DNA of 58,591 nt, taken from IMG/VR virus record IMGVR_UViG_3300045999_002215, positions 1 through 58,591 of that record; one strand, 5' to 3'. Shown here in pieces: positions 11,660-51,499 of the stretch. The stretch's first letter is position 1; each line of letters begins with the position of its first letter. Under the pieces are notes generated by a model. That model was not told the origin of the DNA, made no database searches, and saw only the letters and a program-made list of their open reading frames with translations. The stretch comes from a virus. Both the position numbers and the translations under genes were made by a program.

Positions 11660-11660
11660 G

Positions 11661-33965: not shown

Positions 33966-34325
33966 TTAGTCGTCCGCCGTTTCGAAATCGTCGAAGTCCA
34001 TGCCCAGCTGACCGAAGTCCCACTTCTGAGCAGTGTACTGAAAGCTGTCTCGGTCCCAGCTGAGAACATTGATGATGTCCTCTTGCTCACCGATGATAGT
34101 CATGCAAACCGCGCAGAGCGTAGGGTCGCCGATCATCAAGAGGTGGTCTCCGGGATGCCAGTCTGCGAGTATGCGGCGAGCCTTAGCGATCATGCTGGGC
34201 TTGTCGTACGGTTTGCGAGGCTTACCGAACACCCCCTGCAACCGACCATAACGCCGCGCGTCAGACAGGTCTTTATTGTTGTCAACTTGAACGACAAACA
34301 CTGTTTGTGTATTAGCGTTTTGCAT
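33966..34325 (-). CDS. hypothetical protein (119 aa)
   Basis: A 119-residue protein starting MQNANTQTVFVVQVDNNKDL and including ARRILADWHPGDHLLMIGDP; the last 20 residues are acidic. The middle suggests an alpha/beta fold. The ATG at 34325 has AGGAAGAG upstream and overlaps the end of the DNA polymerase gene by 14 bases. Function unknown; coupling to the polymerase suggests a replication role. Confidence 0.65.
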   Translation of the reverse strand: MQNANTQTVFVVQVDNNKDLSDARRYGRLQGVFGKPRKPYDKPSMIAKARRILADWHPGDHLLMIGDPTLCAVCMTIIGEQEDIINVLSWDRDSFQYTAQKWDFGQLGMDFDDFETADD

Positions 34326-36156
34326 TTTTGCTCTTCCTAGGGGCTTTGGGTGGCGGGGCAGCGAGTGCGTGCTCTTCTGCGGTGAGGTAAGCCGAGCACC
34401 CCACAGCAATGGCAATCTTGATAGCCTCTTTACGATACCATGCGTAGTCAAGGTCCGCCGGGTGGGTAACCTTGTCAAGCATCGTCATACAGGCCCGAGC
34501 ACCCTCGGTCTTGGGAACCTTGTTACCGTTCTTCACGTACCTAAGGGGCTCAAGGCCAACGTCGTTTGACTGATACCAGCGCACGACCTTGCCCAAGTAT
34601 TGCCCCATCTGCTCTCCCCCGCCAGTCACGTTACGCGCCGAAATGAAGTCACAGAACGGCGCAGCAGTGATGGTCTGCTGGAACGGTATCCCGTTGGCCA
34701 ACCATTGCCCCACAGCGTCGGAGCAGACCTGCGCCGTGGGGTTCTTCCGGAGCGAGAGAGGAGCGTAGATACCCTTCACCTTGAGTTCGCGATCAGGCTT
34801 AACCGCGATGTAGTTGTTCACGTCCTTCATAGCGAGAGCGCGATAGGGCGTGAACTCAAAGCTAAACCGTGACACCTCACTGAACTTGCTGACCACGCGC
34901 TGGATCAGCTCGTCCTTACCGCGCGGGTAACGGATAGCGATGCCGTCGGTGTTGGCTGACAGAGTTTCAGCCCCGGCGCGCTCAAGCCACTCAATCAGCA
35001 TGAGCAGCGTGAACTGGCCGGTGAGCGTCACCGCCAGCATTAGGTCAGGCGAGTACAACACCGAGTACTTGCTTGCCAGCTTGCCGAACGTGCCGTTCAG
35101 AGAGATCTTGAGCGTGGCGTCGGTGGTCTTGTCACCGGACCGCTTGGCTTCAAGGCGGCGACTGTAGATCTTGCGATACTCCCGAACGAAGTCCGATCCC
35201 AAGCTAGCAGGAACGAAACCGCACTCAAGAATGATGCTCGGGTAGAAGCTGGCTGCGTCAATATCGCACATGACGTAGTCCTCCCCGGCCACGTAGCAGA
35301 CCTGCTTGTCATGAACGCTGTGAATGCCGCCCACGCCGAGCTGATATTCACCGGTGCCGAACTTTACAGTCTGCAGCCCCAAGAAGTCTGGCAGCTGGAC
35401 GTGGCCCGTAACCCGGTTCATGTTGAACGTGTGAACCGCCACGCGGTCAAGCAACGCCTGAAGTTCGGCGTCCATGAACTTGAGGAAGCTCGGCGGGGTG
35501 TAGGTTACGGTCTTCGGCACCTCGTTGTCTTTGCGCTTGAGGCCCATGCTGGTGATGTACGCCTGCTCAGCCATTTGCGAGTCTGACTTGCTGCGCATGT
35601 CAACCCCGTAGCGACGGCTCATTTCAACGCGCAGCACGACCTCTTTCTCCAGCTGATTCAGCAGTTCGGCGGTCGTCTCTACGTCGTTGCGGCAATACTC
35701 CACCAGCATGGGCTCTTGCTCAACTGAGATCATTGCATCATGTGCTAGCGGCATGTCCTGCAGCTTGGGCATGTGCATCCGAGCGCCGTAGGCTTTCAAA
35801 CCCACGAACGAGGGAGCGACCTCAATTAAGTCAATGTCATCAGTCATCACGTCTCGCAGACTGAACTTACGCATCGCGGCCCAAGGCGCAACGCGGTTGG
35901 TAATGACGTCGTCTGCGATGCGCTTGATCTCGATCTCCGTGCGGCCAAGACAGAACGCGGACACAACGATGTTGTCAAACGACTTGCTGTTGAAGCCGAT
36001 GAACGTCGCGTCCGGTTGCTGCAAGAACCGCGTGAGCCGAGCCGGGGCATCATTTTCATGACGCCACAGCTCGAACCACTCCCCTGTTTCTACGTCTTTG
36101 GCGCAGAACAGGGTGCGGTTTGGCAGGGTCTCAGTGTCAAACACCCAAGTACTCAC
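34312..36156 (-). CDS. DNA polymerase, family B type (614 aa)
   Basis: Proofreading domain: Exo I VFDTET (Asp7, Glu9), Exo II FIGFNSKSFDN (Asn56, Asp61), Exo III YCRNDVE (Tyr154, Asp158). Polymerase domain: motif A DIDAASFYPSII (Asp300), motif B LKISLNGTFGKL (Lys350, Asn354), motif C LSANTDGIAI (Asp404). The usual DTD of motif C reads NTD here, keeping the second, metal-binding Asp. At 614 residues it is a compact form, as in many phages. The GTG start at 36156 overlaps the stop of the upstream gene (GTGA). It replicates the phage genome and would have to accept modified thymidine templates. Confidence 0.88.
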   Translation of the reverse strand: MSTWVFDTETLPNRTLFCAKDVETGEWFELWRHENDAPARLTRFLQQPDATFIGFNSKSFDNIVVSAFCLGRTEIEIKRIADDVITNRVAPWAAMRKFSLRDVMTDDIDLIEVAPSFVGLKAYGARMHMPKLQDMPLAHDAMISVEQEPMLVEYCRNDVETTAELLNQLEKEVVLRVEMSRRYGVDMRSKSDSQMAEQAYITSMGLKRKDNEVPKTVTYTPPSFLKFMDAELQALLDRVAVHTFNMNRVTGHVQLPDFLGLQTVKFGTGEYQLGVGGIHSVHDKQVCYVAGEDYVMCDIDAASFYPSIILECGFVPASLGSDFVREYRKIYSRRLEAKRSGDKTTDATLKISLNGTFGKLASKYSVLYSPDLMLAVTLTGQFTLLMLIEWLERAGAETLSANTDGIAIRYPRGKDELIQRVVSKFSEVSRFSFEFTPYRALAMKDVNNYIAVKPDRELKVKGIYAPLSLRKNPTAQVCSDAVGQWLANGIPFQQTITAAPFCDFISARNVTGGGEQMGQYLGKVVRWYQSNDVGLEPLRYVKNGNKVPKTEGARACMTMLDKVTHPADLDYAWYRKEAIKIAIAVGCSAYLTAEEHALAAPPPKAPRKSKNAKR

Positions 36157-36452
36157 AGCTTATCCGGGTTGCTAAAGCGCAGGTCTCCACGAGGCAGAGA
36201 TCTGGGCTCAGGTTGGCTCTTGTTGAGTTCGGCGTAGATCATCTCACGCTTCTTCTCAAGGCAGTGAATGGCCTTTTCAAGATCCTCAAGATCTTTCTCA
36301 AGACCGCCCTTCTTGCCGAGGCGCGCCATGTACTTGCTGGCATAACCGAGCAGGTAGTCGCCCCCGAAAATCATGTACACCAAGTCCCAATGCTGGAGGC
36401 CCGATTCGTTCTTGTAGTGGGTGCCGCCCACCTGCTTGTCATTCGCACTCAT
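36153..36452 (-). CDS. DUF3310 protein (99 aa)
   Basis: The start KQVGGTHYKNESGLQHWDLV is the hallmark of DUF3310, also found in T7 gp1.7-type nucleotide kinases. The following helices (DYLLGYASKYMARLGKKGG, KDLEDLEKAIHCLEKKR) complete the family pattern. T7 gp1.7 phosphorylates dGMP and dTMP; this protein is a single-domain version and its activity is unknown. It overlaps both the nucleotidase and polymerase genes. Confidence 0.8.
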   Translation of the reverse strand: MSANDKQVGGTHYKNESGLQHWDLVYMIFGGDYLLGYASKYMARLGKKGGLEKDLEDLEKAIHCLEKKREMIYAELNKSQPEPRSLPRGDLRFSNPDKL

Positions 36453-36936
36453 GGCGCATCTCCTCGATCAGGTTGAACAGATGTTCTGCCGAGCCGGTCG
36501 GCTCGAGCTTCTTTGCGTAGCTGATGTAGGTGTCGTACACCGCCCGCATACGGCGATTGCCTAGGCTCATCTCGCGCAGGCAAAATAACGCCCCGTGGGC
36601 GATGTCGGCAAATTTGAGGGTGCGCGCGTCTTCCGGGCTAAGCTCAGGGAAGATGATGCCAGATTCAAGCATGAGCCGAAGCTCCAGCTTTTCAACCTGC
36701 TCGCCGATGCCGTATTCGCGCTTGGCCGGAGAGGGGATGTCCCCAGTCCGGTGCTCTGCCAGATCATGAAGCAGCGCGGCAATCAGCAGGGGGCTTGAGG
36801 CGCTCTGGTCAAGCATGAGCACCAAGCAGGCGACCCCGTGAGAGTGGTGACCCACCGTCTCATTTTGAAGGGTCGTGTAGGTGTGGAAGCGAGTTACCTC
36901 GGCACCAGCAAGTATGAAGTCAAGCACGTTCCGCAT
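36439..36936 (-). CDS. HD-domain 5'-deoxynucleotidase (YfbR-like)
   Basis: A 165-residue HD hydrolase. Metal ligands are visible: ENETVGHHSHG-like region (QNETVGHHSHGVACLVLMLD) and ALLHDLAEHRTGDIPSPAKR (His-Asp pair and Glu). The downstream KFADIAHGALF supplies the last Asp. YfbR-type enzymes remove phosphate from deoxynucleoside monophosphates such as dUMP or dTMP. In this genome it may deplete normal dTMP so that a modified nucleotide is used. It is first in its own transcript from the promoter at 36969-36998, with leader TAACTGGAGA. Confidence 0.85.
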   Translation of the reverse strand: MRNVLDFILAGAEVTRFHTYTTLQNETVGHHSHGVACLVLMLDQSASSPLLIAALLHDLAEHRTGDIPSPAKREYGIGEQVEKLELRLMLESGIIFPELSPEDARTLKFADIAHGALFCLREMSLGNRRMRAVYDTYISYAKKLEPTGSAEHLFNLIEEMRHECE

Positions 36937-36999: not shown

Positions 37000-38007
37000 T
37001 CATTTCTTTCCCATAGTTTTCATCAGCTTACGTTTCTCACGGCGGTCGATCCAGTCAAACACCGCCTTGCGCCAATCATCAGCTCGGATCTGCTGAGCGT
37101 AGTAGCGTCCGTCACCGGACTGTGTCTTACGCGCTCGGCTGACCAGAGCCATCGGGCGAGCTGCGTAGTCAAAGAACGGGCTGGCGTAGCGGGTGCGCTC
37201 GTCAAACGGGTTTTCGCAGAACGCCTCGCACTCTTCAAGGAACCGCTCATAATCGCTGTCAATCATCAGCGGAGACGGCACTACCGCGCCCCGAGAGTAA
37301 TGGTCGTATTCTTCTGAGACAGGCGGACTCAGGAGGTACGGAGTGGCGTCGTACAGCTCCGTATACAGGTGAAGGTTATTGCTCACCTGACGGTAGACGC
37401 CGACCGGATGGCCTGTCGCCGCTGCCACGAACTCCTGCAACACGCTAAAGTGCACCGCGTTGGCCCCGTATGCGCCCCACCAGATGTCATTGCTGCGGTT
37501 GAACACGGTCATGTTCAAGCGACCTTTACGCACGTCAAACACAATCTGCGTGTTGCACGCCTTGTCCTTCGTGTTCTTGGCGAGGTCGGCGCTGTCCCAG
37601 ATTTGAATAACCGCCTGCCGCGTAGCGTGGTCGCGACGTAGCAGCCTGATAACTTCGGTAAGCTGGTCGCGCCCAAAGTGGTTACGCCAGCGATGGCCGT
37701 AAGCCGCGTTGAAGTTTGCGCCGTCGTCGCTAAAGTCACCCATGCGCGAGTTGAACTGCGTCAGGAACGCGACGTCCTTACGCCCTGCCAGCATCCAGAC
37801 GGACTCCATGAGGTGAAAGATCGGGTTTGCGTCTCGCCCCTCATGAAACAGAACCCTCTCTGTTGGTCGGGTGTAGACCGTGGTCACCATCTCCGGGTGC
37901 ACGATTGCCGGCCCGTTGCGAGTGTGCTCAGGCTCGAGGTTCAGCACCTTGAGCTTCCAGAATATCTCGCTGAACGCTTGGTTCACGTTACGAACTACAA
38001 GTTCCAT
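37000..38007 (-). CDS. thymidylate synthase homologue, probable dUMP hydroxymethylase
   Basis: A 335-residue ThyA-fold protein. Conserved elements: ESVWMLAGRKD; RRDHATRQAVIQIWDSADL (phosphate Arg); ACNTQIVFDV with catalytic Cys151; NRSNDIWWGAYGANAVHFS with Asn183 at the place of the dUMP-specific Asn; NNLHLYTELYD. The Asn argues for dUMP rather than dCMP as substrate. Such proteins make either dTMP or 5-hydroxymethyl-dUMP. Because the next three genes upstream belong to thymidine hypermodification, hydroxymethylation of dUMP is the favoured reaction, but sequence alone does not settle it. It is longer than ThyA (264 aa). Confidence 0.75.
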   Translation of the reverse strand: MELVVRNVNQAFSEIFWKLKVLNLEPEHTRNGPAIVHPEMVTTVYTRPTERVLFHEGRDANPIFHLMESVWMLAGRKDVAFLTQFNSRMGDFSDDGANFNAAYGHRWRNHFGRDQLTEVIRLLRRDHATRQAVIQIWDSADLAKNTKDKACNTQIVFDVRKGRLNMTVFNRSNDIWWGAYGANAVHFSVLQEFVAAATGHPVGVYRQVSNNLHLYTELYDATPYLLSPPVSEEYDHYSRGAVVPSPLMIDSDYERFLEECEAFCENPFDERTRYASPFFDYAARPMALVSRARKTQSGDGRYYAQQIRADDWRKAVFDWIDRREKRKLMKTMGKK

Positions 38008-38009
38008 AC

Positions 38010-38930
38010 TTAAAACTCCGTTTCAGGAATGTAGGTTGTTTTGGGTTTGCCTTCGCCTAGGACGGTGCGGCAATACTTGCTGAACTCACACATGCAGTTC
38101 TGAACGTCGTGCAGCGTGAGGTCGTCAATCTCAAGCTCATCTATCACCGCATCGCGGATCTTGACAAGCTCATAGTTGAAGTTGTCCTGCGTCCATCCGG
38201 CGCTCGGGCTGCGGTTGAGCAGGTAATTCAGCCCGCGACTGCTGCCGGGGCCGATGGGCGCGTAAGTGTTCAGGTCTGCCGCAGAACCGAGCTGAGTGCA
38301 ATAGGTGAGGTCGGCGGCGACCTGCCCTGCCATGAACGTGCTGATGCCAAAACTACCCGACAGCTCTTTGACAAAGTCAGAGATCAAAGGCAGCGTCCTG
38401 AATATTGCGTAGTCAATCTCATCACCGATGTTGAGCGCCGGGGCGATGATGTGCTTTGCCACGGCGAGAGACTTGACTCCGCCGGGGTCCATCTTGGTTG
38501 GGTAAACCATGTACGCGCCGGAGTAGACTTTGTTGCCTTCACCTTTGAGCCGCTCTACCGACTCTGAGAAGTCTTGCGGGTCAAAGTCACCGGCTGCGCG
38601 GAACAGAATGCCGTCGTCAATCAGCCTTTGCAGCGTCGGTGGCCAGTTGATGAGCCGCGTGATGAGCAGTATGAACCAGAGGTCTTGGCGGTTCTCGTTC
38701 GGTCTGATAATGCGCTCGATGATCCACTTGGTCACGCGGTCGTCGCGACGGCGGATGTTAGTGAACTTGTATTTGTCAAGCACCGGGTCTTTGGTGTACG
38801 GGCGCTCTCCCCCACCCTCACGGACGATGCGGATCACTTCACGTTCCCAGATGAAGTAGAGGAGCGCGGGCATTGAGCACACGGTGGTCGGGTTGGGCAT
38901 GGGGTAGGGAGCGGTGTTACGCATTTTCAT
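38010..38930 (-). CDS. thymidine-hypermodification helical protein (HMUDK-helical / pyrophosphorylase-type)
   Basis: A 306-residue helical protein. The N-terminal pattern MPALLYFIWEREVIRI, KDPVLDKYKFTNIRRRDDRV and DLWFILLITRLINWPPTL, plus the later GISTFMAGQVAADL and YAPIGPGSSRGLNYLLNR, places it in the superfamily that contains the 5-hmdU DNA kinase helical domain and the alpha-glutamyl/putrescinyl thymine pyrophosphorylases. These act on 5-hydroxymethyl-dU in DNA. Which clade it belongs to I cannot decide without profiles. I choose ATG 38930 because an upstream TTG (38948) lies in the kinase gene. It is three bases from the ThyA-like gene. Confidence 0.75.
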   Translation of the reverse strand: MKMRNTAPYPMPNPTTVCSMPALLYFIWEREVIRIVREGGGERPYTKDPVLDKYKFTNIRRRDDRVTKWIIERIIRPNENRQDLWFILLITRLINWPPTLQRLIDDGILFRAAGDFDPQDFSESVERLKGEGNKVYSGAYMVYPTKMDPGGVKSLAVAKHIIAPALNIGDEIDYAIFRTLPLISDFVKELSGSFGISTFMAGQVAADLTYCTQLGSAADLNTYAPIGPGSSRGLNYLLNRSPSAGWTQDNFNYELVKIRDAVIDELEIDDLTLHDVQNCMCEFSKYCRTVLGEGKPKTTYIPETEF

Positions 38931-39498
38931 ATTCCCGGATGATTTCAAGTAGCGCGGGGTGAGTGTTTTTGTGGTCGATCAGGCGCACGTCGTAGCCGCC
39001 TTCTTTGCGCAGGTTCTTGTAGCAGTTGACCACAGACTCAAACTTGTCAATCAAGTTCTTGGGGTCAAACGCTTTCTCGTTACCGGCTTCCAAGCGCCGA
39101 CCCTTCACCCTCTCAATGCAGAGGTCCTGCGGGGTGTCGAGGAACGCATAAGCGTCACAGCCTGTGGGGTGGATGGTTTGCGTTACCTGCCCTGCGAGAC
39201 CGCTCGCTGAGACCAAAGCGCCTTCATACAGCACGTGACCTAGCGGGTGCGCCTTCATGATCTTCTCGGCAATCTCCGCCTGCGTCTTGATGGCGTCTGT
39301 GCCGCCGCAAGTGTTGTCGTATTTGCCCACGACGAACACCGGAGCCGTGACACCCGCCGTGGTCAGGTCCAGCCGGTAACCCGCGATCTTGTTACCGCTC
39401 ATCAGCATCTGGTTGGGGTAGCCGTTCAGGAACTCCCGCATAGCGGTCGTCTTGCCCGAGCCGAACGTGCCCGCGATTCTGAGTATGACGTGTTTCAT
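38917..39498 (-). CDS. P-loop kinase, putative 5-hmdU DNA kinase
   Basis: A 193-residue P-loop kinase with Walker A AGTFGSGKTT (Lys16) at the N-terminus, a YDNTCGGTDAI substrate-side loop, HVLYEGALVSASG and a lid region with ERVKGRRLEAGNEKAFDP. Kinases of this kind, encoded beside the helical proteins, phosphorylate the hydroxymethyl group of 5-hmdU in DNA as first step of hypermodification. Context on both sides supports this. Its ATG overlaps the upstream stop (ATGA), and its 3' end overlaps the next gene by 14 bases. Confidence 0.75.
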   Translation of the reverse strand: MKHVILRIAGTFGSGKTTAMREFLNGYPNQMLMSGNKIAGYRLDLTTAGVTAPVFVVGKYDNTCGGTDAIKTQAEIAEKIMKAHPLGHVLYEGALVSASGLAGQVTQTIHPTGCDAYAFLDTPQDLCIERVKGRRLEAGNEKAFDPKNLIDKFESVVNCYKNLRKEGGYDVRLIDHKNTHPALLEIIREYENA

Positions 39499-40499
39499 AG
39501 GAAGTGTTCCCCTCTGAACGGCATCCCCGTCTCCGGGAACAGCGCCGCCTTTTGCTTGATCGTGAGTCGCGGACCCTTGGCGCACTCGTCGCGCAACCAT
39601 TCGGGCAGCAACTCGCTGCGGATGTCTTTGAACGTCTCGGTATACTTTGACTGGCCGCGAGACTCAGCCCACTCAATCCGCTCCCAGGCCATGTCGGCGT
39701 AAACGCCGGGGTAGCGGCGACCGAAGAAGTGGTTCTTGAACGTGCACAGGTTGCTCTCCATGGTGAACTTGCTGACGTCGGGAACGCCGGTGTGCATCGT
39801 TTTGAACGCCCCCAGAAAGATGTCAGCCCTCTCGTTGAGAAAGCCGCACATCTTCTTGAAGTTCTCGTAGTTGCCGTCAAACCCGTTGTTGGCGCGCTTG
39901 TCCCATACGAGATTATCAAACCCGAGCAGGAACAGCATGCCGTTGCGGTGCGACTTGCTGCCTGACTTGTCTTCAAAGAGAAGGTCGTCGCAGTCGGCCC
40001 CAAAGCCGTTCAGGAACACGTACTCCAAATAGGAGAAAGATGACAAGCGCCCAAACGAGTAGTAGCGGTTGCGCACGAGCTTCCAAAGCTCTTCGTACGT
40101 CTTACCCGTGAGCATGGCCTCTTGAGAGCCGTGTTCCTCCACCAGCCGAGCGTAAACCCTGATGGCTTCAACGGTGTCGCGCTTTTGGTAACGGCGGTCA
40201 GTGTCAAACTGCAGGGTGTCCCACTCAGCATTGAACCAGTCTTCAAACCGCTTGAGAGTTGCGCTCGCCGGGGGAACCGACGGGAGCTGATCAAACAGGC
40301 GGAGCGACGTGATGGGGTTCTGCGTCATGCCGTTCAAGAAGGCGAACCACAGCCGCTGCTCGGCATCCCAGTTGTTGCGAGTGGCAAGCTCAGGCATGTA
40401 AAGGTAAACCAGCCCCGGCATGACCCCGTGGCTCAAGTTCAGGTCGTACAGCTTGTAGAAGTAACTCCCGCGCGTGTCTACGGTGCGATAGTCAATCAT
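39495..40499 (-). CDS. amino acid:DNA transferase-type protein (aGPT-PPlase clade 2 / ADDT)
   Basis: A 334-residue protein of the family called amino acid:DNA transferase or alpha-glutamyl/putrescinyl thymine pyrophosphorylase clade 2. Visible family features: WDAEQRLWFAFLNGMTQNPI; LQFDTDRRYQKRDTVEAI; YYSFGRLSSFSYLEYVF; HRNGMLFLLGFDNLVWDK; FTMESNLCTFKNHF. These proteins replace the phosphate or pyrophosphate on 5-hydroxymethyl-dU in DNA by an amino acid or amine. It begins the hypermodification cluster and overlaps the kinase gene by four bases. Confidence 0.75.
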   Translation of the reverse strand: MIDYRTVDTRGSYFYKLYDLNLSHGVMPGLVYLYMPELATRNNWDAEQRLWFAFLNGMTQNPITSLRLFDQLPSVPPASATLKRFEDWFNAEWDTLQFDTDRRYQKRDTVEAIRVYARLVEEHGSQEAMLTGKTYEELWKLVRNRYYSFGRLSSFSYLEYVFLNGFGADCDDLLFEDKSGSKSHRNGMLFLLGFDNLVWDKRANNGFDGNYENFKKMCGFLNERADIFLGAFKTMHTGVPDVSKFTMESNLCTFKNHFFGRRYPGVYADMAWERIEWAESRGQSKYTETFKDIRSELLPEWLRDECAKGPRLTIKQKAALFPETGMPFRGEHFL

Positions 40500-40680
40500 C
40501 TTGATACTCCTCGTTATCCAGTTTCTTTATCAGAGCGGGAACTTTGCGCCACTTGTATATGCTCGCGGTCGAGACGCTATAAAGAGCTGCAGCGTTTTTC
40601 ACACCAAAACGCTCGGCAGAGCGCAAAGCCCCAATACGAAGGTCGTCGGTAAGCCCGTAGTCAGGATGTAACCCGGTCAT
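40492..40680 (-). CDS. small HTH protein (62 aa)
   Basis: A 62-residue protein starting at ATG 40680, with a helix-turn-helix in RSAERFGVKNAAALYSVSTA followed by SIYKWRK, a pattern typical of simple DNA-binding proteins. It overlaps the previous stop (ATGA) and the following gene by eight bases. It could regulate transcription of the replication block; target unknown. Confidence 0.65.
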   Translation of the reverse strand: MTGLHPDYGLTDDLRIGALRSAERFGVKNAAALYSVSTASIYKWRKVPALIKKLDNEEYQDD

Positions 40681-40847
40681 TTCACGCAACTCCCCTGCAC
40701 CCACTGCTTGTCGGCGGCGATGCACTGTTCGTAGCGCAACTGACTTTTCTCCGTCTCATCGAAGATCACCTGACCCAGCCCGTAGATGAAGAACGCAAGG
40801 CAGGCGATGCCCGCCAGCGGCACGATGTTGTCCCAGAAGTCTCTCAT
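40677..40847 (-). CDS. small membrane protein (56 aa)
   Basis: A 56-residue protein with one membrane segment (about residues 9-27, VPLAGIACLAFFIYGLGQV) and a polar tail containing two cysteines (YEQCIAADKQWVQGSC). ATG 40847 overlaps the stop of the upstream gene by four bases. Function unknown; early membrane proteins of phages often interfere with superinfection or host functions, but nothing here shows that. Confidence 0.6.
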   Translation of the reverse strand: MRDFWDNIVPLAGIACLAFFIYGLGQVIFDETEKSQLRYEQCIAADKQWVQGSCVK

Positions 40848-41092
40848 CTGCGCCCCCTGTTCCAAGCCAGCCGCGATATTTTGTTCGCCAGATCGTCGAG
40901 CTCCTCAACGCTAATATCGCGATTGTCAAGCAGTGCCGTATAGATCGCCGCCGTCAACCGCTTGCTGGGCAACACCGCCGACCCTTGAATTATCGCAGCT
41001 ACCGCCTCTGACTGCACGTCACGTACCGGCATCAGCCTCTCTTGTTTACGTCCGAATATCATCGTCATTATCTCCTTCAGATAACTGTTCAT
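40844..41092 (-). CDS. hypothetical protein (82 aa)
   Basis: An 82-residue mainly helical basic protein (IFGRKQERLMPVRDVQSEAV; ISVEELDDLANKISRLAW). Start overlaps the primase-helicase stop by four bases. Family not recognised; likely accessory to replication by position. Confidence 0.6.
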   Translation of the reverse strand: MNSYLKEIMTMIFGRKQERLMPVRDVQSEAVAAIIQGSAVLPSKRLTAAIYTALLDNRDISVEELDDLANKISRLAWNRGRR

Positions 41093-43221
41093 AGTCCGTA
41101 TTTGCCCCGCTCGGTCGCCTCCACCACAGCCTCGTTCACACGCAGGTAATGGTTAGCGCGGCCTTGCGGTTTTTCAAGCTCTACCCGCTCTAGCGAGCCG
41201 TCATTGAGCAGCGACTCGATGGCGCGCTCTTTGCGCTCCTGCGAGCATTTGACACCGCCCTTGAGCACCGGGAGCCGTTCGTAGTACGAGCGGGACTTGC
41301 CGGGGTCGCGGCGCACAAGTTCAATCAGGTCGTTGCAGATGCGCGACCACTGCTCTTGCTCCTTCTGTTCCTTGCGGTCTTCCTTAAGCTGCACTCGTTC
41401 TCCGGGCTTGAGCGGGCGAGCCACCGAGTGAGAGAACCAGATCTCTTTGTCGTAGCCCAACACATCCTTATGCACCTGCTTGTTTGACACGAGGTCAAAG
41501 GTAAGCTCTGAGAACTCGACCGGGAAGCGAACCTTGGTTGCCTTGAGCACACGCGGCGCTTCTTGGTCCTCGCCATCTTTGAACACCGTGTACACGCCCT
41601 GCGCGTCACCTGTCCAGGCCGAAGCCCCGCGCGGTGACAAGTAGTCCGACTCGCCGGAGCCGAGCGCCTTGGCGGTGTGGCTGACGATGATGATTGGGAA
41701 CGCGCTGAAAGCCTGCTTTATGTAAGCCATCGCGCGACCAACTTCTGCGTTGTCGTTTTCATTCTCAAGGTCAAACACCGCGTTCGCGGTATCAAACACG
41801 ACCAGCGGGAGAGCCTCATAAGCTGTGCCGTCCGCCTTCTCGTTACCTACCGTCCACTCCTTGTACTCCTCAGCAACCTGCGCGACTATCTTCGGGTCCA
41901 TCCTCTGGGCGCTGATGACGCGAACCCTCTCGTCAAAGTCAGACACGTGCATCCCGGTGTAGCCCCAAGAGTAGAGCGAGTAGATGACGCGCTGAACCTG
42001 CACAACAGACTCAGTGATGATGATAACATTGCGCCGCACTGCGGGCTTGAGAGCGTAGTCGTGCGGGCAGAGGTGCGCTGTGGCAAGGGCCATGGGCACG
42101 ATGAGCGTAGTCTTACCGACACCGGGCGCACCAGCAACCACGTTCACGCCGGTGCTCATAAAGTCGTCGTAGATGTATTCAAAGACCGTGACCTGCCCCG
42201 CGCCGGACAACACTGAACGCTTGAGGCTGAGGGGATGTTCATCGCCGGAGGGTGCGGTCTCCCCGCTGGCAACGGTGGAGGCAGGCGTGTTGCCCGACCA
42301 TCCGTTGTCGATAGCCATGCGGAAGATGCTGCGGTAAGTGATTGAGTGGGGCCGGTCAATGTCGCGCTCCCACTTGCGCCTCTGAGCTGCGGCATCAAAC
42401 TTGTCGCTGGTTGCTGCCCACTCAGTCCAGATCTTGTAACCGTTCTCGCCGTAAGGCTTGAGTACCATGCCCACATTGACCCACGTTGTGTAGTCGTCGG
42501 CGTCTACGTGCTTCAGCGCCGAGCGCAGGTCGTCAAAGGTTTGCGCCGTGGCGACCGGAACACCTCCCCGCTCGGTCAGTGAGTAATTCACCGGAGCTCG
42601 AGCCTTGTCAGCAATCAGAGTGGGCAGCGGAGAGGGTCGCGCCGGTGACGACTGGCTGAGCGGGGAGCGGCCCTGGGCCCAACGGTAGTCGCCCGACGGT
42701 CCCAGCGTGGGCGCAACGCAGATATAACCCTGATGCTTGAGGTCTAGTCCCTTGCCGAGTGTGCCGGGGTAGGTCATCGCCGCGTCAGCCCGGAACAGCC
42801 GGTGCTCTCCTCCGCCCTGCGTGATTGCCGTGCAGTCCGAGTGCAACACCCCGTGCTCAGCTTCTATTGCCGACAGAGACTCCTGTCCGCCGTTCTGCGG
42901 GTCAATGTCTAGCGCCAACAGCCCGGAGTCTGCGAGGCTGATGCCTATGCCCGCCTCGGGGTCCGTGGCCCACCAGTCCCGGATAGTCTGTTCGTTAATG
43001 CTCGCGTCTTGGTGTCCGTGCGGCACAAGGCTTGACTGCGGGTGCTTACCCGGCTTGTGGCCCTTCTCATTATTGGGTCGCCCGCAGCGACACTGACCTT
43101 GTTCGTCAACTGACCATACCGGCAACACGTGCCAGCCGAGCCGCGCATACGCCAGTGCGTAATCGAGAGGCTTGGGCTGTTCGTTTACGGCCCAGATGTG
43201 TTTGGGCGGCTTACTGCTCAT
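41089..43221 (-). CDS. Prim-Pol primase / RepA-like helicase fusion (710 aa)
   Basis: Residues about 20-200 are a bifunctional primase-polymerase (AEP) domain: LLALDIDPQNGG (Asp105, Asp107), QGGGEHRLF (His140) and GLDLKHQGYICVAPT. Residues about 228-308 fit a PriCT-type domain (DADDYTTWVNVGMVLKPYGE). Residues about 340-600 are a RepA/RecA-like hexameric helicase with Walker A AGAPGVGKTT (Lys370) and Walker B LPLVVFDTAN. The last 80 residues form a small domain (RRDPGKSRSYYERLP, CSQERKERAIESLL) shared with the protein at 51957. It makes primers and unwinds DNA for the family B polymerase. Its ATG overlaps the upstream helicase stop. Confidence 0.88.
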   Translation of the reverse strand: MSSKPPKHIWAVNEQPKPLDYALAYARLGWHVLPVWSVDEQGQCRCGRPNNEKGHKPGKHPQSSLVPHGHQDASINEQTIRDWWATDPEAGIGISLADSGLLALDIDPQNGGQESLSAIEAEHGVLHSDCTAITQGGGEHRLFRADAAMTYPGTLGKGLDLKHQGYICVAPTLGPSGDYRWAQGRSPLSQSSPARPSPLPTLIADKARAPVNYSLTERGGVPVATAQTFDDLRSALKHVDADDYTTWVNVGMVLKPYGENGYKIWTEWAATSDKFDAAAQRRKWERDIDRPHSITYRSIFRMAIDNGWSGNTPASTVASGETAPSGDEHPLSLKRSVLSGAGQVTVFEYIYDDFMSTGVNVVAGAPGVGKTTLIVPMALATAHLCPHDYALKPAVRRNVIIITESVVQVQRVIYSLYSWGYTGMHVSDFDERVRVISAQRMDPKIVAQVAEEYKEWTVGNEKADGTAYEALPLVVFDTANAVFDLENENDNAEVGRAMAYIKQAFSAFPIIIVSHTAKALGSGESDYLSPRGASAWTGDAQGVYTVFKDGEDQEAPRVLKATKVRFPVEFSELTFDLVSNKQVHKDVLGYDKEIWFSHSVARPLKPGERVQLKEDRKEQKEQEQWSRICNDLIELVRRDPGKSRSYYERLPVLKGGVKCSQERKERAIESLLNDGSLERVELEKPQGRANHYLRVNEAVVEATERGKYGL

Positions 43222-44759
43222 TGGGTATCTCCAAAGTGCTCCTCAATCACATTCCAATAGCGTCCGGACTTGCGCACTGTGACCGCGTAGGGTTGACGAG
43301 CGCCTTTCATCTGCCACGATAGTGAACGGGCGGGGGAAGGTAGATTTACGGCCAACGCGCGACTGTTGAAGAACTCCAGCGTGGCGCGGTTGGGGGACTC
43401 GGTGTTGATGAACTGAGAGGCGTCGATGCGTGCGCCTTCGGGGGTGGTGCAGGTGTACTGCACGAGCAGCACCGGGGCGTCGGGTGCGCGCCGGGTAGGT
43501 ATCGCCACGCTGTTGACTGCGTGAACCTGAGCGATTATGGCGGAGCCCTCGGTGGCCTCCTTGCCGGTCATGGGGTCGATGGGGGCGAGGGTGCGCACAC
43601 CGGGGTAAATCTTGCGCTCGCGCCGGACGTAAGGCTTACTCGGCACAGCCTCAACTTCAACGCGACCCTGCTCGCGGTAGAACGTCTCGTACATGTCTAC
43701 GCCGCCGAGCCGGATGAGGTTGCCCACGTAGTCAAGCACGAGGCAGTTCTTTTTGCTCGGGTGTAGGCGTGTGCCGCGACCCTGAATCTGAACCCACAGA
43801 GACGATGAAAGCGTGGGGCGGAGGCAAACAATGCAGTCGAGCGCCGGGAAGTCGAAGCCCGTGGTGATCATGTCAACCGAGCACAGGACCCGGACCTCTC
43901 CCGAGCCGAACCGGGCGAACGCTGCGTCGCGCTGGTCTTGGCGGAGACCGCCGTGCAAGACCTCGGTTGTCCAGCCGGTCACATCATTGATGATCTGCGC
44001 TGTGCGCTGAGCTGCGGCCACGGTGGGGCAGTAAACGGCGACGTGGTTGCGCTTCCCGGCCAGAGAGACCATCGACTCAGCCACGGCATGCAACCAGTTC
44101 TCGGTCTGCATCTCTTCTACTTCAGACTGCGTGAAGTCGCCCTGCACTGTGACTTCGTCAACGTCGAGCTGAATGGCCGTCTCAACACCGACCAACGGGC
44201 AGAGCCATCCGTCTGCCACAGCGCGAGGCACAGTGTAGTTGTAGGCGAGCTTGTCGAACCAGAACTGCTCTCCGTCGCCGTAAATGGTTCCGTTGTCCAT
44301 TCGCCAAGGCGTGGCGGTCATAGCTACGCGCTGGGCCTGGGGGTAACGGCGGAGGATCGTCTCGTAGAGCGTGGGTTCACCCTCGTTGTGCGGCACACGG
44401 TGCGCCTCGTCGATGATGACGAGGTCCGGCGCTTTGAGTTCCGGCAGCATACCCATCATGCTCTGGATGGTGCCGAACGTAACCCCGCCGAACGTGTCTT
44501 TGCGGTTCAAACCTGCGCAAACTATGGCGGGTTCCATGCCTGTGTAACGGGTGTATGTGGCCGCGTTCTGACCCACGAGCTGTTGAACGTGCGTGAGAGC
44601 CCAAGCCTGTTTGCCGGCAAGGCGGCAGTGCTCAGCGAGGTCTGCAATGATGAGCGACTTACCCGTGCCGGTGGCAAGCTGCAAAACAGGATTAGCGCCC
44701 CGGCCCAATGATTTTAGGGCGGCGGTGACAGCTTCTTGTTGGTAGGGGCGCAGTTGCAT
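43218..44759 (-). CDS. DEAH superfamily 2 helicase (513 aa)
   Basis: A 513-residue SF2 helicase: Q-like start MQLRPYQQEAV, motif I LATGTGKS (Lys34), motif II IIDEAH (117-120), motif III MTATP, and C-terminal motifs MITTGFDFPALD and VQIQGRGTRLHPSKK. It resembles phage UvsW/Ssl2-type helicases that remodel branched DNA or R-loops and can influence origin use. It is the first gene of the leftward early operon, downstream of the promoter at 44788-44816 with leader TATAACTGGAGA. Confidence 0.88.
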   Translation of the reverse strand: MQLRPYQQEAVTAALKSLGRGANPVLQLATGTGKSLIIADLAEHCRLAGKQAWALTHVQQLVGQNAATYTRYTGMEPAIVCAGLNRKDTFGGVTFGTIQSMMGMLPELKAPDLVIIDEAHRVPHNEGEPTLYETILRRYPQAQRVAMTATPWRMDNGTIYGDGEQFWFDKLAYNYTVPRAVADGWLCPLVGVETAIQLDVDEVTVQGDFTQSEVEEMQTENWLHAVAESMVSLAGKRNHVAVYCPTVAAAQRTAQIINDVTGWTTEVLHGGLRQDQRDAAFARFGSGEVRVLCSVDMITTGFDFPALDCIVCLRPTLSSSLWVQIQGRGTRLHPSKKNCLVLDYVGNLIRLGGVDMYETFYREQGRVEVEAVPSKPYVRRERKIYPGVRTLAPIDPMTGKEATEGSAIIAQVHAVNSVAIPTRRAPDAPVLLVQYTCTTPEGARIDASQFINTESPNRATLEFFNSRALAVNLPSPARSLSWQMKGARQPYAVTVRKSGRYWNVIEEHFGDTQ

Positions 44760-44787
44760 ACGGTCTCCAGTTATACGTTATCCGGTG

Positions 44788-44816
44788 ATTATGGGCGCGA
44801 TTTTCTCAAAAGGCAA
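44788..44816 (-). promoter_or_regulatory. early leftward promoter, TTGCCT-17-CATAAT (minus strand)
   Basis: On the minus strand -35 TTGCCT is at 44816-44811 and -10 CATAAT at 44793-44788, spacer 17. An A/T-rich stretch upstream (44820-44845) may act as UP element. Divergent to the promoter at 44855. Confidence 0.8.
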
Positions 44817-44854
44817 GCGGAAAAACTTTTTTGGCTTAAAAGCAAAAATAACGC

Positions 44855-44883
44855 TTGCCTTCCACGTTGAATGAAACTATAGT
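44855..44883 (+). promoter_or_regulatory. early rightward promoter, TTGCCT-17-TATAGT
   Basis: -35 TTGCCT (44855-44860), -10 TATAGT (44878-44883), spacer 17. Drives the small accessory genes. Shares the A/T-rich upstream stretch with the divergent promoter. Confidence 0.8.
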
Positions 44884-44933
44884 CATTCCATGGCCCACAG
44901 GGGTCGGATAACTCGATAACTGGAGACACGCAC

Positions 44934-45191
44934 ATGGCCGCTCAAACCTTCGCCCAGATCGCAAACGTAGCTAACGCGCTGCCCGTTGGTCGTCCCGAAG
45001 ACCTCGCTGACCGCGTCAAGTACATGGTTTATTGCGCCGAGCTGAACGCTAACGAAACGATCCACTTGGACAAAGCCGCCAGCGAAGCCGACTTCGACGT
45101 CCTGGCTCTCGCCTCGTTGGAAAGCAACCTCTGCTTCTGCGAAGACTATGAAGTCTGCAAGTGGTTCGCCGAGAACGACGTCGCATTCTGA
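44934..45191 (+). CDS. early hypothetical protein (85 aa)
   Basis: An 85-residue acidic protein (ESNLCFCEDYEVCKWFAEND near the C-terminus, four cysteines in the second half). First gene after the rightward early promoter; leader contains TAACTCGATAACTGGAGA. Promoter-proximal position suggests high early expression, as for host-takeover proteins, but no family is recognised. Confidence 0.7.
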   Translation: MAAQTFAQIANVANALPVGRPEDLADRVKYMVYCAELNANETIHLDKAASEADFDVLALASLESNLCFCEDYEVCKWFAENDVAF

Positions 45192-45218
45192 ACTTAACCC
45201 GATAACTGGAGAACTGAC

Positions 45219-45446
45219 ATGGCCCTTCGCCAAATCACCATGGACCTCGACAGCCCCTACGTCAAGACCTACAAGACCGAGCAGAACCTGATGAAGCGTA
45301 TTGAAGAAGAACGCGACATGTACCCCGACACCGACGACCGCTTCATAGTCGTGTGCACCCCGAAAGGTCGCTGGACCGCCATCGTGGTCCTTGACAAAGC
45401 GAAGGGCGGGTACATTGGCCGCTACGAATCGTTCATGAAGGTGTGA
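45219..45446 (+). CDS. early hypothetical protein (75 aa)
   Basis: A 75-residue protein, N-terminal charged helix (EQNLMKRIEEERDMYPDTDD) followed by a beta hairpin (RFIVVCTPKGRWTAIVVLD). The leader repeats GATAACTGGAGA seven bases before ATG. A compact hairpin follows the stop codon. Unknown family. Confidence 0.7.
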   Translation: MALRQITMDLDSPYVKTYKTEQNLMKRIEEERDMYPDTDDRFIVVCTPKGRWTAIVVLDKAKGGYIGRYESFMKV

Positions 45447-45457
45447 CCTTCCGGTAA

Positions 45458-45475
45458 CCAGCCCTGCGGGGCTGG
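45458..45475 (+). promoter_or_regulatory. intergenic RNA hairpin
   Basis: CCAGCCC/GGGCTGG (45458-45464, 45469-45475) with a TGCG loop. No T-run follows, so it may be an mRNA-stabilising or processing hairpin rather than a terminator. Confidence 0.55.
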
Positions 45476-45516
45476 CATCCAGAAGGCCAACCCTATAACT
45501 GGAGAAGGAGACTCCC

Positions 45517-45774
45517 ATGGCTTACCGTTTCCCTAAAGCTGGCACCTCTACTGCCAAAATGGTCACCCCGGAGACCCTGGTGCTTCTGGCCAACCCTGGC
45601 CGCGCGCCAACCCTGAGCGAAGCCCGCGCACATGCGCGCAACTGGCTCCGCTCCTCTACCTCGGGAGCCACCGGCCTCTACTCGGTCTGCCTGCTCGCAG
45701 ACGACGACCTCGCGATCGTCTTCTTTGGCATCCGGCGCGCTCAGCGCATCGTCTGGAACTTCGGGAAGGCATGA
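45517..45774 (+). CDS. early hypothetical protein (85 aa)
   Basis: An 85-residue small alpha/beta protein (MVTPETLVLLANPGRAPTLS, LYSVCLLADDDLAIVFFGIR). Leader TATAACTGGAGAAGGAG gives a strong ribosome site. A terminator follows 14 bases behind its stop. No family recognised. Confidence 0.7.
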   Translation: MAYRFPKAGTSTAKMVTPETLVLLANPGRAPTLSEARAHARNWLRSSTSGATGLYSVCLLADDDLAIVFFGIRRAQRIVWNFGKA

Positions 45775-45787
45775 GCCGACCCCTGCA

Positions 45788-45819
45788 GGGGGCGTGGAAA
45801 ATGCCCCCTTTACTTTCTT
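45788..45819 (+). terminator. intrinsic terminator
   Basis: Stem GGGGGC/GCCCCC (45788-45793, 45803-45808), nine-base loop, then the T-rich TTTACTTTCTT. It overlaps the -35 box of the next promoter, separating the first three early genes from the rest. Confidence 0.75.
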
Positions 45820-45837
45820 GAAAGACCGCCCTATACT
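45809..45837 (+). promoter_or_regulatory. sigma70-type promoter, TTTACT-17-TATACT
   Basis: -35 TTTACT (45809-45814) lies in the T-rich tail of the terminator; -10 TATACT (45832-45837), spacer 17. Followed by TAACTCGATAACTGGAGA, the same leader as downstream of the promoter at 44855. Confidence 0.65.
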
Positions 45838-45870
45838 CCACTTCAATAACTCGATAACTGGAGAACTCCG

Positions 45871-46770
45871 ATGACTGCATCCACAACCATCAACGACATC
45901 TTCGGCGACCTGCCCGATGACGAGCCGCCGATGCGCTTCAAACTGTCGCGCACTGCTGACGGCGCTACCACCATGCGCCGCGTGTACCGTGAGACCTGCT
46001 CTAAGTGTGGCGGGGACGGCATGTGGCATGGGCACGGTGACTGCACCGGCGACGGACGCTGCACCATGTGTGATGGCGTCGGCTACAAGGTGTTCAAGAC
46101 CTCTCCCGAATCCCGCGCAAAGTCTCGCGACGCTGCCGCTGCAAAGCGCAACGCCAAAGAAACTGAGGTCCGCGCAGCTTACGAGGCTTGGCTGGCCGCT
46201 AACCCGGCAGAAGCCGAGTGGCTGCGTGAAGCCGCTGGTCGTGGTCTTGAGTTCGCCGCGTCTCTCCTCGAGAGCCTGCGCACCTACGGCAGCTTTACCG
46301 AGCGTCAGGAAGTCGCTGTGCGCAATGCTACCGAGCGGTCTCAGGCTCGCAAGGCTGAATGGGCTGCTGAAAAGGCCGCGCGTGAGTCCGCAGCTCCCGC
46401 CGTAGATGCCGCTCGTCTTGAGCAGTCGTTTCTCAAGGCCAAGGCCAACGGCCTGAAATGGCCGCGCATCACCCTGGGCGACATGGTTATCAAGCCCGCC
46501 GGTGACACCAGCAAGAACCCTGGCGCGCTCTACGTCACTGAGTCCGGCCAGTACTTGGGTAAGGTCATGGGTGGTCGGTTCTTCAAGGTCCGCGAATGCG
46601 ACTCCGCGCAGGAAGGCATTGTGGTAAACCTCATCAACGACCCCGTGGGTGCGGCTGAGGCTTACGGTCACCTGACCGGCCACTGCTGCATCTGCAATCG
46701 CGAACTGACCAACCCCGAGTCTGTGGATCGCGGCATCGGACCCATCTGCGCCGACAAGTTCGGCTGGTAA
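45871..46770 (+). CDS. zinc-finger protein with DnaJ-like and DUF6011-like motifs (299 aa)
   Basis: Residues about 43-70 hold CSKCGGDGMW and CTMCDGVGY, a DnaJ-type double zinc knuckle. The middle is a charged helix (RNAKETEVRAAYEAWLAANP). The C-terminus, GHCCICNRELTNPESVDRGI followed by GPICADKFGW, matches the DUF6011 zinc motif common in phage proteins. A beta segment (GALYVTESGQYLGKVMGGRF) precedes it. Probably binds nucleic acid or protein partners early in infection. Confidence 0.75.
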   Translation: MTASTTINDIFGDLPDDEPPMRFKLSRTADGATTMRRVYRETCSKCGGDGMWHGHGDCTGDGRCTMCDGVGYKVFKTSPESRAKSRDAAAAKRNAKETEVRAAYEAWLAANPAEAEWLREAAGRGLEFAASLLESLRTYGSFTERQEVAVRNATERSQARKAEWAAEKAARESAAPAVDAARLEQSFLKAKANGLKWPRITLGDMVIKPAGDTSKNPGALYVTESGQYLGKVMGGRFFKVRECDSAQEGIVVNLINDPVGAAEAYGHLTGHCCICNRELTNPESVDRGIGPICADKFGW

Positions 46771-46784
46771 CAGGAGAACCAAAA

Positions 46785-46889
46785 ATGAAATACCGCATTC
46801 GTGACATCCTCGCTGACCTGATTGCCTGCATCGCAATCTTCGCCATCGGCTACGGGTTGTTCTTCATCGGCCACGGTCTCGGCTGGTGA
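46785..46889 (+). CDS. very small membrane protein (34 aa)
   Basis: A 34-residue ORF preceded by AGGAGAAC. It encodes one hydrophobic helix (LIACIAIFAIGYGLFFIGHG) with a charged N-terminus (MKYRIRDILAD). Too short for certainty, but ribosome site, spacing and placement between two genes support it. Confidence 0.5.
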   Translation: MKYRIRDILADLIACIAIFAIGYGLFFIGHGLGW

Positions 46890-46919
46890 CCTCAGAAACT
46901 TATCGCTTGGAGAATACCA

Positions 46920-47315
46920 ATGAAGAGGCTAAACTTCTCAGCCATGACGACCCCGCAGTTGGTGTCGTTCTACAATGAACACAGCCCTAAGCCGGTGACT
47001 CGGTTTAGCGACCGCAAGACTGCCGAACGGAGGTGCGCGGAGTTGTTTTGCAGTATGAAGCCCGCAGACGTTCTTAGTCGCCCCAACATGCAGACCTCGC
47101 TCAAACTCGACCGCACCATTACCTGCGTCGAGACCGGCGAGACCTGGAAGAACGCTCACCAGATGTGGGTCGCCCACCCTGACTGGATGAACAGCGGCCA
47201 ACAAGACCGCATGACCTCTCAACTATACGCTGCGGCCAAGGCTTGCGTTCAGCGCCGGGTCGCTGTCAACGGTCGCACATTCATGCTCGTCAACGTGCCG
47301 GAGAAAACTCAATGA
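46920..47315 (+). CDS. hypothetical protein (131 aa)
   Basis: A 131-residue basic protein. The N-terminus (MTTPQLVSFYNEHSPKPVTR, FSDRKTAERRCAELF) is a pattern seen in many phage and plasmid proteins of unknown function. Leader CTTGGAGAA is a variant of the early leader. The stop overlaps the next ATG. Confidence 0.7.
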   Translation: MKRLNFSAMTTPQLVSFYNEHSPKPVTRFSDRKTAERRCAELFCSMKPADVLSRPNMQTSLKLDRTITCVETGETWKNAHQMWVAHPDWMNSGQQDRMTSQLYAAAKACVQRRVAVNGRTFMLVNVPEKTQ

Positions 47316-47548
47316 CCTCTGGCGAACCCATAAATGAAGACCCGGAACTGCTTGAGGTGATCTGGTTCACCAACAGCCGAGGTTCTGTAGGTATTGCGGC
47401 TGTCAAGACCGCGTATAGCGGTGTCAAGTTCTACGTAAGCCCGGTTGACGGCTTTAACGAGGCCGTGGACTCCAACCTCATCATGAACCTGGGCGCTCGG
47501 TTTCCTGACGCTGCAGGGCACGCTCTTTTCAACGGAAGGTACGCATGA
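47312..47548 (+). CDS. hypothetical protein (78 aa)
   Basis: ATG at 47312 overlaps the preceding stop (ATGA). The 78-residue product is acidic at the start and has alternating hydrophobic residues (LEVIWFTNSRGSVGIAAVKT). It overlaps the PLP enzyme start by four bases. Unknown family. Confidence 0.65.
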   Translation: MTSGEPINEDPELLEVIWFTNSRGSVGIAAVKTAYSGVKFYVSPVDGFNEAVDSNLIMNLGARFPDAAGHALFNGRYA

Positions 47549-48504
47549 CCAACACCATATTCCCCGTTCACTCGCTTGACCGTAACGTCATTGAGTGGGA
47601 AAGCTACCTGGGCGCAATGACGCCATGGGAGAACCGCAGTGGTCTCTGGTTCAAACGCGACGACTACTTCGCGCCGCTCGGCTACGGTGGTCCTAACGGC
47701 TCCAAGATGCGCCAACTCATCTGGTACGTAAACAAGTTTCGCGCAGGCAAGTCTCACATCGTCACCGGGGCGAGCATCCAGTCTCCGCAACTGAGCATGA
47801 GCGCGATCGTCGGGCAGCACTACGGTTTGCCGGCTCGGCAGGTCGTGTACAGCAAACCCGACACCGTCCTGCGTCATGAGAACCCGCGCATCGCCTACGG
47901 CTTCGGCGCAGAGTTTGAATACGCCAATGGCCCCTATAACCCGATCATCCAGCGCCGCGTGGCCGACCTCACCCAAGACAAGTCTCTCGTGGTTGAGTAC
48001 GGCATCACGGTTCCGCATGACAGGTACGACCCCGAAGCTGTACGCAAGTTCCACGAGGTCGGCGCGAACCAGCTGAGCAACATCCCCGATGACGTGCGTC
48101 GGCTCATCATGCCTGCGGGTTCATGCAACTCCCTGACCAGCGTCATGCTCGGTCTGCTGCGCGACCCGAAGAACGTAGAAGAGCTGTTCACTGTCGGCAT
48201 CGGGCCGGACAAGCTGCCCTGGGTGCGTGCTCGCCTGCAGTACATCGGCCTGGACGTAGACCATCTGCCGTTCAAATGGCGGCATTACAGCCTGCACGAC
48301 AGCGGGTTCAGCAAGTACTCCGACCACTTCAAAGGCGAGCAGTATGACGGCATCAACTTCCACCCGACTTACGAGGCGAAGATGTGGCGCTGGCTCACCC
48401 AGAACGATCAGCTCGACTACGACGACAGCACTGCGTTCTGGGTTGTGGGCTCAGCGCCCAACCCCAAGGTGATTGAACCGTTCTACACGAGGAGAGCAGC
48501 ATGA
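47545..48504 (+). CDS. PLP-dependent fold-type II enzyme (319 aa)
   Basis: Resembles ACC deaminase/D-cysteine desulfhydrase/cysteine synthase-type enzymes. LWFKRDDYFAPLGYGGPNGS followed by Lys54 corresponds to the KRDD...GGNK.RKL segment in which Lys binds PLP. TGASIQSPQLSMSAIVGQHY matches the substrate-binding GG.QSNH.R helix, with the usual Asn-His absent. PAGSCNSLTSVMLGLL is at the place of the phosphate-binding Gly-rich loop but has fewer glycines. The reaction is not predictable. In this phage it could supply or tailor an amino acid for thymidine hypermodification; it could equally serve host metabolism. Confidence 0.7.
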   Translation: MTNTIFPVHSLDRNVIEWESYLGAMTPWENRSGLWFKRDDYFAPLGYGGPNGSKMRQLIWYVNKFRAGKSHIVTGASIQSPQLSMSAIVGQHYGLPARQVVYSKPDTVLRHENPRIAYGFGAEFEYANGPYNPIIQRRVADLTQDKSLVVEYGITVPHDRYDPEAVRKFHEVGANQLSNIPDDVRRLIMPAGSCNSLTSVMLGLLRDPKNVEELFTVGIGPDKLPWVRARLQYIGLDVDHLPFKWRHYSLHDSGFSKYSDHFKGEQYDGINFHPTYEAKMWRWLTQNDQLDYDDSTAFWVVGSAPNPKVIEPFYTRRAA

Positions 48505-51085: not shown

Positions 51086-51326
51086 AGACATGCTCGAGGC
51101 AGCAGAACGTAAAGGCTGGAACAGCGCCCAAACCGCGCGGCACTACCAAACCCACAGCGCAGTCATCGACGACGCCTGCGAACGCTTTAGTGTTGTGCTA
51201 CCCGAACACGGCGCAGCACCCGCCCCACCTAAGAAGAAACCCAGCGCCGCGTGGTCTGCGGGTCCCGAGGCCATCAAACGTGCTCTTGAGAAAATGCAAC
51301 CCGCGTCCGGTGGGGCGAAAAGGTAA
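51060..51326 (+). CDS. small HTH protein (88 aa)
   Basis: ATG 51060. The first 50 residues contain a helix-turn-helix-like stretch (LEAAERKGWNSAQTARHYQT, HSAVIDDACERFSV); the rest is a basic Pro/Lys/Ala linker and a short helix (GPEAIKRALEKMQ). As last gene before the origin-like region it may bind there or regulate the accessory block. Its 3' end (from 51320) already belongs to the first long direct repeat. Confidence 0.6.
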   Translation: MIGRRRITKDMLEAAERKGWNSAQTARHYQTHSAVIDDACERFSVVLPEHGAAPAPPKKKPSAAWSAGPEAIKRALEKMQPASGGAKR

Positions 51327-51408: not shown

Positions 51409-51499
51409 TAAGCCCGTCGCTTTTCAACCGGCTTGCTGCGGGTGCCTGTGTTTTTGCGAGCCTCAACCGCGTCCGCAATGCACTTTGGGAGAGTGCGAG

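Follow-up and report, generated by a model that had tools for sequence, protein, structure and literature searches.

A predicted thymidine hypermodification gene set of the phage ViI kind in an uncultured phage

The IMG/VR virus record IMGVR_UViG_3300045999_002215, analysed here in its entirety (58,591 bases, referred to as the window), carries a kit of six genes, of known kind, which very probably specifies a thymidine hypermodification pathway. Four tightly packed minus-strand genes at positions 37000–40499 had been recognized in a sequence-only reading as encoding an amino acid:DNA transferase (ADDT), a P-loop kinase, a helical protein of the 5-hydroxymethyldeoxyuridine kinase/pyrophosphorylase superfamily and a ThyA homologue. 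Their positions and families are borne out, with profile searches returning the expected family for all four proteins and an unrelated family for none. Two further members had been missed: an HD-domain nucleotidase at 36439–36936 and a pyridoxal phosphate (PLP)-dependent enzyme at 47545–48504. The junctions, described as 3–14 bases long, are actually overlaps (4 nt for ADDT/kinase and about 8–14 nt for kinase/helical protein, varying with the start chosen) or, between the genes for the helical protein and the ThyA homologue, a gap of 2 nt. The same reading proposed that part or all of the thymidine is replaced by a conjugated base; the families and the predicted fold of the transferase support the pathway, while the extent and the chemistry of the replacement are what we infer from them. 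We lean towards 5-(2-aminoethoxy)methyl-deoxyuridine (5-NeOmdU), the modified base of Salmonella phage ViI, or a close relative of it, as the final product.

The ThyA-type protein (37000–38007, minus strand, 335 residues; PF00303, E = 2.5e-21; phrog_5131, 7.6e-106) is predicted to be a deoxyuridylate hydroxymethylase that makes 5-hydroxymethyl-deoxyuridine monophosphate. It shows 45% identity to gp17 of phage YuA and to other entries named deoxyuridylate hydroxymethyltransferase, and phage homologues at 45–47% are annotated as thymidylate synthases or as deoxyuridylate hydroxymethyltransferases. The best relative of solved structure is the CMP 5-hydroxymethylase MilA (5e-19), the best thymidylate synthase scoring 4e-14. 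Alignment to Escherichia coli ThyA indicates that the protein retains the catalytic Cys151 and Asn183, which reads deoxyuridine monophosphate (dUMP), and lacks Trp80, Trp83 and the C-terminal tail. In thymidylate synthases these last three features are determinants of methyl transfer, and the pattern suggests a pyrimidine hydroxymethylase. It is very improbable that the protein is an ordinary thymidylate synthase among the genes of an unrelated nucleotide-salvage cluster: the catalytic cysteine and asparagine would be conserved in that case as well, but its nearest kin are phage hydroxymethylases and MilA, and the methyl-transfer features have been lost. Directly downstream lies a YfbR-like HD 5'-deoxynucleotidase (36439–36936, minus strand; PF12917, 3.8e-9), in a place equivalent to that of YuA gp18, of Pam3_53 and of the orthologues in relatives of the window phage, which is predicted to deplete competing deoxythymidine monophosphate (dTMP) or other deoxynucleoside monophosphates.

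The P-loop protein (38917–39498, minus strand, 193 residues, start ATG at 39498; phrog_800, 1.8e-18) carries the Walker A motif GTFGSGKTT and is a predicted 5-hydroxymethyldeoxyuridine (5-hmdU) DNA kinase. It is 24–28% identical to the kinases YuA gp13, that of phage Pam3 and ViI Vi01_061c. The Pfam family PF18748 (HMUDK_HMUD1) is matched at E <= 1e-3 by 31 of 40 aligned orthologues (best 3.3e-8), which places the kinase in the 5-hmdU DNA kinase group, an assignment that is firmer for the family than for the single protein. The helical protein next to it (38010–38930 or 38948, minus strand; HMUDK_hel, also known as aGPT-Pplase1; PF18723, 6.6e-39) starts at TTG 38948 in the list of open reading frames, and relatives favour ATG 38930 or 38924. 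Sequence searches of the PDB with this protein gave no useful match. Its AlphaFold model [mean predicted local distance difference test (pLDDT) score 91] is most similar to gp46 of Pseudomonas phage PaMx11 (Z 11.6) and then to DNA glycosylases (Z 10.4), and has a helix-hairpin-helix DNA glycosylase-like fold.

The transferase gene (39495–40499, minus strand, 334 residues; ADDT or aGPT-Pplase2; PF18724, 1.6e-17) heads the run. Searches of the PDB with the single sequence or a narrow ADDT profile gave no useful match; a wider profile, with the ViI and mycobacteriophage proteins added, detects PDB entries 25qc (5e-5) and 8z2m (0.006). The AlphaFold model, with a pLDDT of 95, matches 8z2m, the solved 5-phosphomethyldeoxyuridine (5-PmdU) glycinyltransferase PaMx11 gp46, with a Z score of 17.5 (3.5 Å, 250 residues), the next unrelated fold reaching 9.5. 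By its model, then, the protein is folded like a 5-PmdU transferase that acts on DNA. It is homologous to Vi01_199 of phage ViI (1e-35). No chromosomal relative was confirmed (degenerate patterns, genome contigs).

The PLP-dependent enzyme (47545–48504, plus strand; fold type II, PALP, 0.0024; phrog_3650, 9e-81) is a full-length homologue of ViI Vi01_182 (E = 2e-64) and 36% identical to proteins of the Ackermannviridae. Its profile matches D-cysteine desulfhydrase (2.7e-5), and the putative Schiff-base residue Lys54 is invariant. We assign the gene to the modification cluster because its orthologue lies just upstream of the ADDT gene in 34 of the 43 related loci with enough upstream sequence (gap of at most 250 bases in 41 loci). 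In the window it is found 7 kb from the ADDT gene and on the opposite strand because a block at 40492–48504 is inverted relative to the gene order of most relatives; the block holds small genes, a primase-polymerase gene (41089–43221), a helicase gene (43218–44759), further small genes and the PLP gene itself. The inversion is also present in the record of an almost identical phage (L002). For annotation, the lesson is to count the PLP gene as part of the system also where it is located elsewhere.

These comparisons draw on IMG/VR searches with the ADDT and with the PLP enzyme, which gave 80 loci each, many on common contigs. The usual order among the relatives is PLP-ADDT-kinase-helical protein-ThyA-HD-DUF3310-PolB on a single strand. 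Of the 54 loci whose sequence extends far enough, 53 have the genes for the kinase, the helical protein and the ThyA homologue behind the ADDT gene and in the same orientation, an arrangement far beyond chance. HMUDK_hel is not present in two partial contigs (L109 and L123), which as fragments prove little. The conserved order also bears on the idea that the phage makes only plain 5-hmdU DNA, as in SPO1-like phages, and that the kinase, transferase and PLP genes act elsewhere, for instance on free nucleotides. The ThyA-type enzyme and the HD nucleotidase alone could be enough for such DNA, but the predicted ADDT fold is that of an enzyme acting on DNA, the fold of the helical protein resembles DNA glycosylases and the six genes hold one order across dozens of phages; we regard this idea as improbable.

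In the pathway that we propose, the ThyA-type enzyme would convert dUMP to 5-hydroxymethyl-dUMP and the HD nucleotidase would clear competing dTMP or related nucleotides, so that the phage polymerase could incorporate the hydroxymethylated triphosphate (hmdUTP). Proteins of the aGPT-Pplase/ADDT family are said, in work by Lee and colleagues from 2021, to load an amino acid, which radical S-adenosylmethionine (SAM) isomerases and PLP-dependent decarboxylases then trim. The P-loop kinase, probably together with HMUDK_hel, would place a phosphate on the hydroxymethyl group of certain hmdU residues within the DNA, in keeping with a kinase-first scheme acting on hmdU in DNA (PMC6449724). ADDT would then flip the base out and swap the phosphate for a free amino acid, and the PLP enzyme would tailor that amino acid, most likely by a decarboxylation of the DNA-attached moiety that leaves a positively charged aminoalkyl group. 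The resulting bulkier, amino-acid-derived base would take the place of part of the T in the phage DNA and give resistance to host restriction.

A radical SAM enzyme (PF04055) was found neither in the whole near-complete record nor in 22 long relatives nor in ViI, and is found in YuA and Pam3; nor does the record hold an acetyltransferase of PF00583. An Acetyltransf_CG match (0.017) in an 853-residue virion protein was set aside as chance, PF00583 having found nothing there. The observation in the sequence-only reading that neither partner is seen near the operon therefore extends to the whole record. Because a radical SAM isomerase is lacking, the PLP enzyme is of the ViI type and the transferase resembles that of ViI, the product would most likely be 5-NeOmdU or a close relative and not the 5-(2-aminoethyl)-deoxyuridine (5-NedU) of phage M6. 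The earlier suggestion that the pathway might end in a product other than those known loses force with the recognition of the ViI-type PLP enzyme and of a set of families equal to that of ViI. A related possibility is that the pathway is real and leads to an undescribed base, either through the loading of another amino acid by ADDT or through elimination, deamination or replacement chemistry by the PLP enzyme. The solved kin of the latter are a desulfhydrase and a deaminase (D-cysteine desulfhydrase and 1-aminocyclopropane-1-carboxylate deaminase), not decarboxylases, and ADDT is nearer to uncharacterized mycobacteriophage ADDT proteins (36% identity) than to that of ViI (27%); against this stand the full-length homology of the PLP enzyme to its ViI counterpart and the matching family sets. 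We consider an undescribed base the less likely outcome, though one to be reckoned with.

Besides this affinity of ADDT, several points weigh against a ViI-like pathway and product. Identities to the ViI proteins are low (about 20–40%; PLP enzyme 36%, ADDT 27%, helical protein 20%), so specificity may differ. The kinase matches PF18748 with E = 3.1e-5 and 24 bits, under the Pfam cut-off of 27 bits. The close succession of DNA glycosylases behind PaMx11 gp46 in the structural comparison identifies the helical protein as glycosylase-like and leaves its step in the pathway unfixed. The assignment of families to steps, that of the PLP enzyme as a decarboxylase included, is in part carried over from the schemes reported in Lee 2018 and Lee 2021. 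The system is, moreover, known from metagenomic sequence, and ViI-like phages are reported to have a second P-loop kinase (PMC10458263).

Two side findings from the relatives are new. The first concerns the kinase, which among the related loci (L002–L127) falls into two clades with the Walker A sequences AGTFGSGKTT, as in the window, or RGCNGSGKTT, as in YuA; the two are about 45% identical and occupy a single operon position. In the kinase tree the types are fully apart, whereas on the ADDT tree the type changes 12 times, at least five of these changes being forced by well-supported branches. On a common set of sequences, nine changes are needed on each of the helical protein, ThyA and HD trees and eight on the ADDT tree. 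Long genomes have one kinase each, split into two pieces in one of them. From this conflict between the trees and the single kinase per long genome it follows that the kinase alone has been swapped repeatedly in place, as two deeply diverged alleles. Co-inheritance of the kinase allele with the helical protein, which would be a sign of one joint enzyme, was considered and rejected, since the trees are no different in this respect (nine, nine and nine changes vs eight). The TG/TC preference of the modification may, in the proposal of Flodman et al. (PMC6449724), come from the kinase, which makes an allele-based switch of specificity a testable idea. Tentatively, allele swaps might switch which thymidines are hypermodified, much as restriction-modification systems switch specificity, and, with the loss of the PLP gene described below, close relatives would then bear different bases at different sites.

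The second finding is a sub-clade without a detected match to phrog_3650, which the remaining long genomes do have. It comprises G004 (60.8 kb), G008 (57.5 kb), G009 (45.7 kb) and a number of shorter contigs. The loci concerned are L022, L033–L037, L040, L055 and L078. In locus L027 a remnant of the PLP gene, about 25 C-terminal codons, is found at 8202–8276, upstream of the ADDT gene. No substitute tailoring enzyme was recognized adjoining the operon in the genomes that lack the PLP gene, and for these phages we predict a pathway that ends at the aminoacyl stage and leaves the base undecarboxylated. Natural variants (kinase alleles, PLP-positive and PLP-negative genomes, and the partial contigs L109 and L123, which lack the helical protein) isolate single steps of the pathway; with them one can ask which enzyme determines the sequence context of modification and which one produces the final base. 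Among the other relatives, one contig of 101.8 kb (IMGVR_UViG_3300047121_000347, G006, loci L037 and L106) holds the cluster twice, in two differing versions of which only one includes the PLP gene, and probably represents two related phages joined during assembly. One group (L050, L053, L058 and L063) has an additional gene of about 250 codons between the PLP and ADDT genes.

The gene run continues with a DUF3310 protein (36153–36452, minus strand; PF11753, 3.2e-6), a neighbour that is kept in relatives, and a family B DNA polymerase (34312–36156, minus strand; phrog_1252, 2e-160), which would need to accept hmdUTP. A dUTPase was looked for in the record and none was found. A portal-region protein of a relative maps to both ends of the window (residues 24–474 to 57249–58589 and residues 434–785 to 3–983), which indicates that the record, though classed as linear, represents a nearly complete genome, circularly permuted and opened within the portal-region gene. 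Its scanned proteins gave no match to a sheath or tube protein and no strong one to a tape measure, and the label podovirus-like is plausible. There were no close relatives at the DNA level in 50,697 phage records; the closest cultured relative by terminase is Roseobacter phage CRP-901 (46%), for which no modification cluster is annotated within the stretch consulted. Ahead of the small terminase gene, an iteron-like array at 51320–51850 holds all eight exact CGAACGTT sites of the record (2.5 expected), along with a direct repeat of 95 nt and numerous inverted repeats; it is possibly a replication origin or a binding region for a regulator. At 11343–15060 three successive open frames each match tail-fibre families, as if the fibre genes had been duplicated in tandem.

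Among known systems, phage ViI (Vi01, NC_015296) has the same set of families, with homologues of ThyA (Vi01_060c), kinase (Vi01_061c), HMUDK_hel (Vi01_130c), PLP enzyme (Vi01_182) and ADDT (Vi01_199), and likewise gives no radical SAM match. Its genes, however, are scattered over 157 kb, compared with one operon and an inverted PLP gene here, and a homologue of the HD nucleotidase was not detected in ViI. In Vi01 and CBA120, 5-NeOmdU makes up about 40% of T (PMC11721090). The compact cassette of the Pseudomonas phages M6/YuA and of M6-like SN1 (5-NedU) shares the order kinase-HMUDK_hel-hydroxymethylase-HD nucleotidase; in YuA, Pfam identifies gp10 as ADDT, gp11 as PALP, gp12 as radical SAM (under the cut-off), gp14 as HMUDK_hel and gp18 as YfbR-like, with gp13 and gp17 annotated as kinase and hydroxymethyltransferase, and SN1 is described as having a cassette of the YuA type (PMC9476957). 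Unlike the operon described here, the M6 type has a radical SAM enzyme and Nmad5, and its ADDT and PLP enzyme are too diverged for our family profiles. Pseudanabaena phage Pam3 has the same families, the present kinase and HMUDK_hel being slightly closer to Pam3 than to YuA; it differs in the presence of radical SAM and Nmad5 proteins and in an ADDT and PLP enzyme that the family profiles do not detect. PaMx11 gp46 (PDB entries 8z2m and 8z2n) shares its fold with ADDT, but at 14% identity its amino acid specificity is not transferable. Lee and colleagues reportedly noted in 2021 that viral metagenomes hold such genes in combinatorial sets. Thymidine hypermodification genes have already been reported in uncultured podoviruses, the HTVC023P-type pelagiphages, which carry ThyA and aGPT-Pplase1 near the DNA polymerase and in some cases a 5'-deoxynucleotidase; they have PolA instead of PolB, and ThyA and aGPT-Pplase1 are reported for them without the full set seen here (PMC9599517). 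Across the reference phages, the family profiles for ThyA, kinase, helical protein and HD nucleotidase score best on YuA and Pam3, the PLP profile finds ViI only (312 bits), and the ADDT profile finds the mycobacteriophage protein (235 bits) and ViI (119 bits), and neither YuA nor Pam3. Because the profiles split in this way, the operon appears to be a mosaic that joins M6/Pam3-like hmdU synthesis, kinase and helical proteins to a ViI-like transferase and PLP enzyme, and brings the ViI gene set into a compact, widespread operon in phages of about 58 kb.

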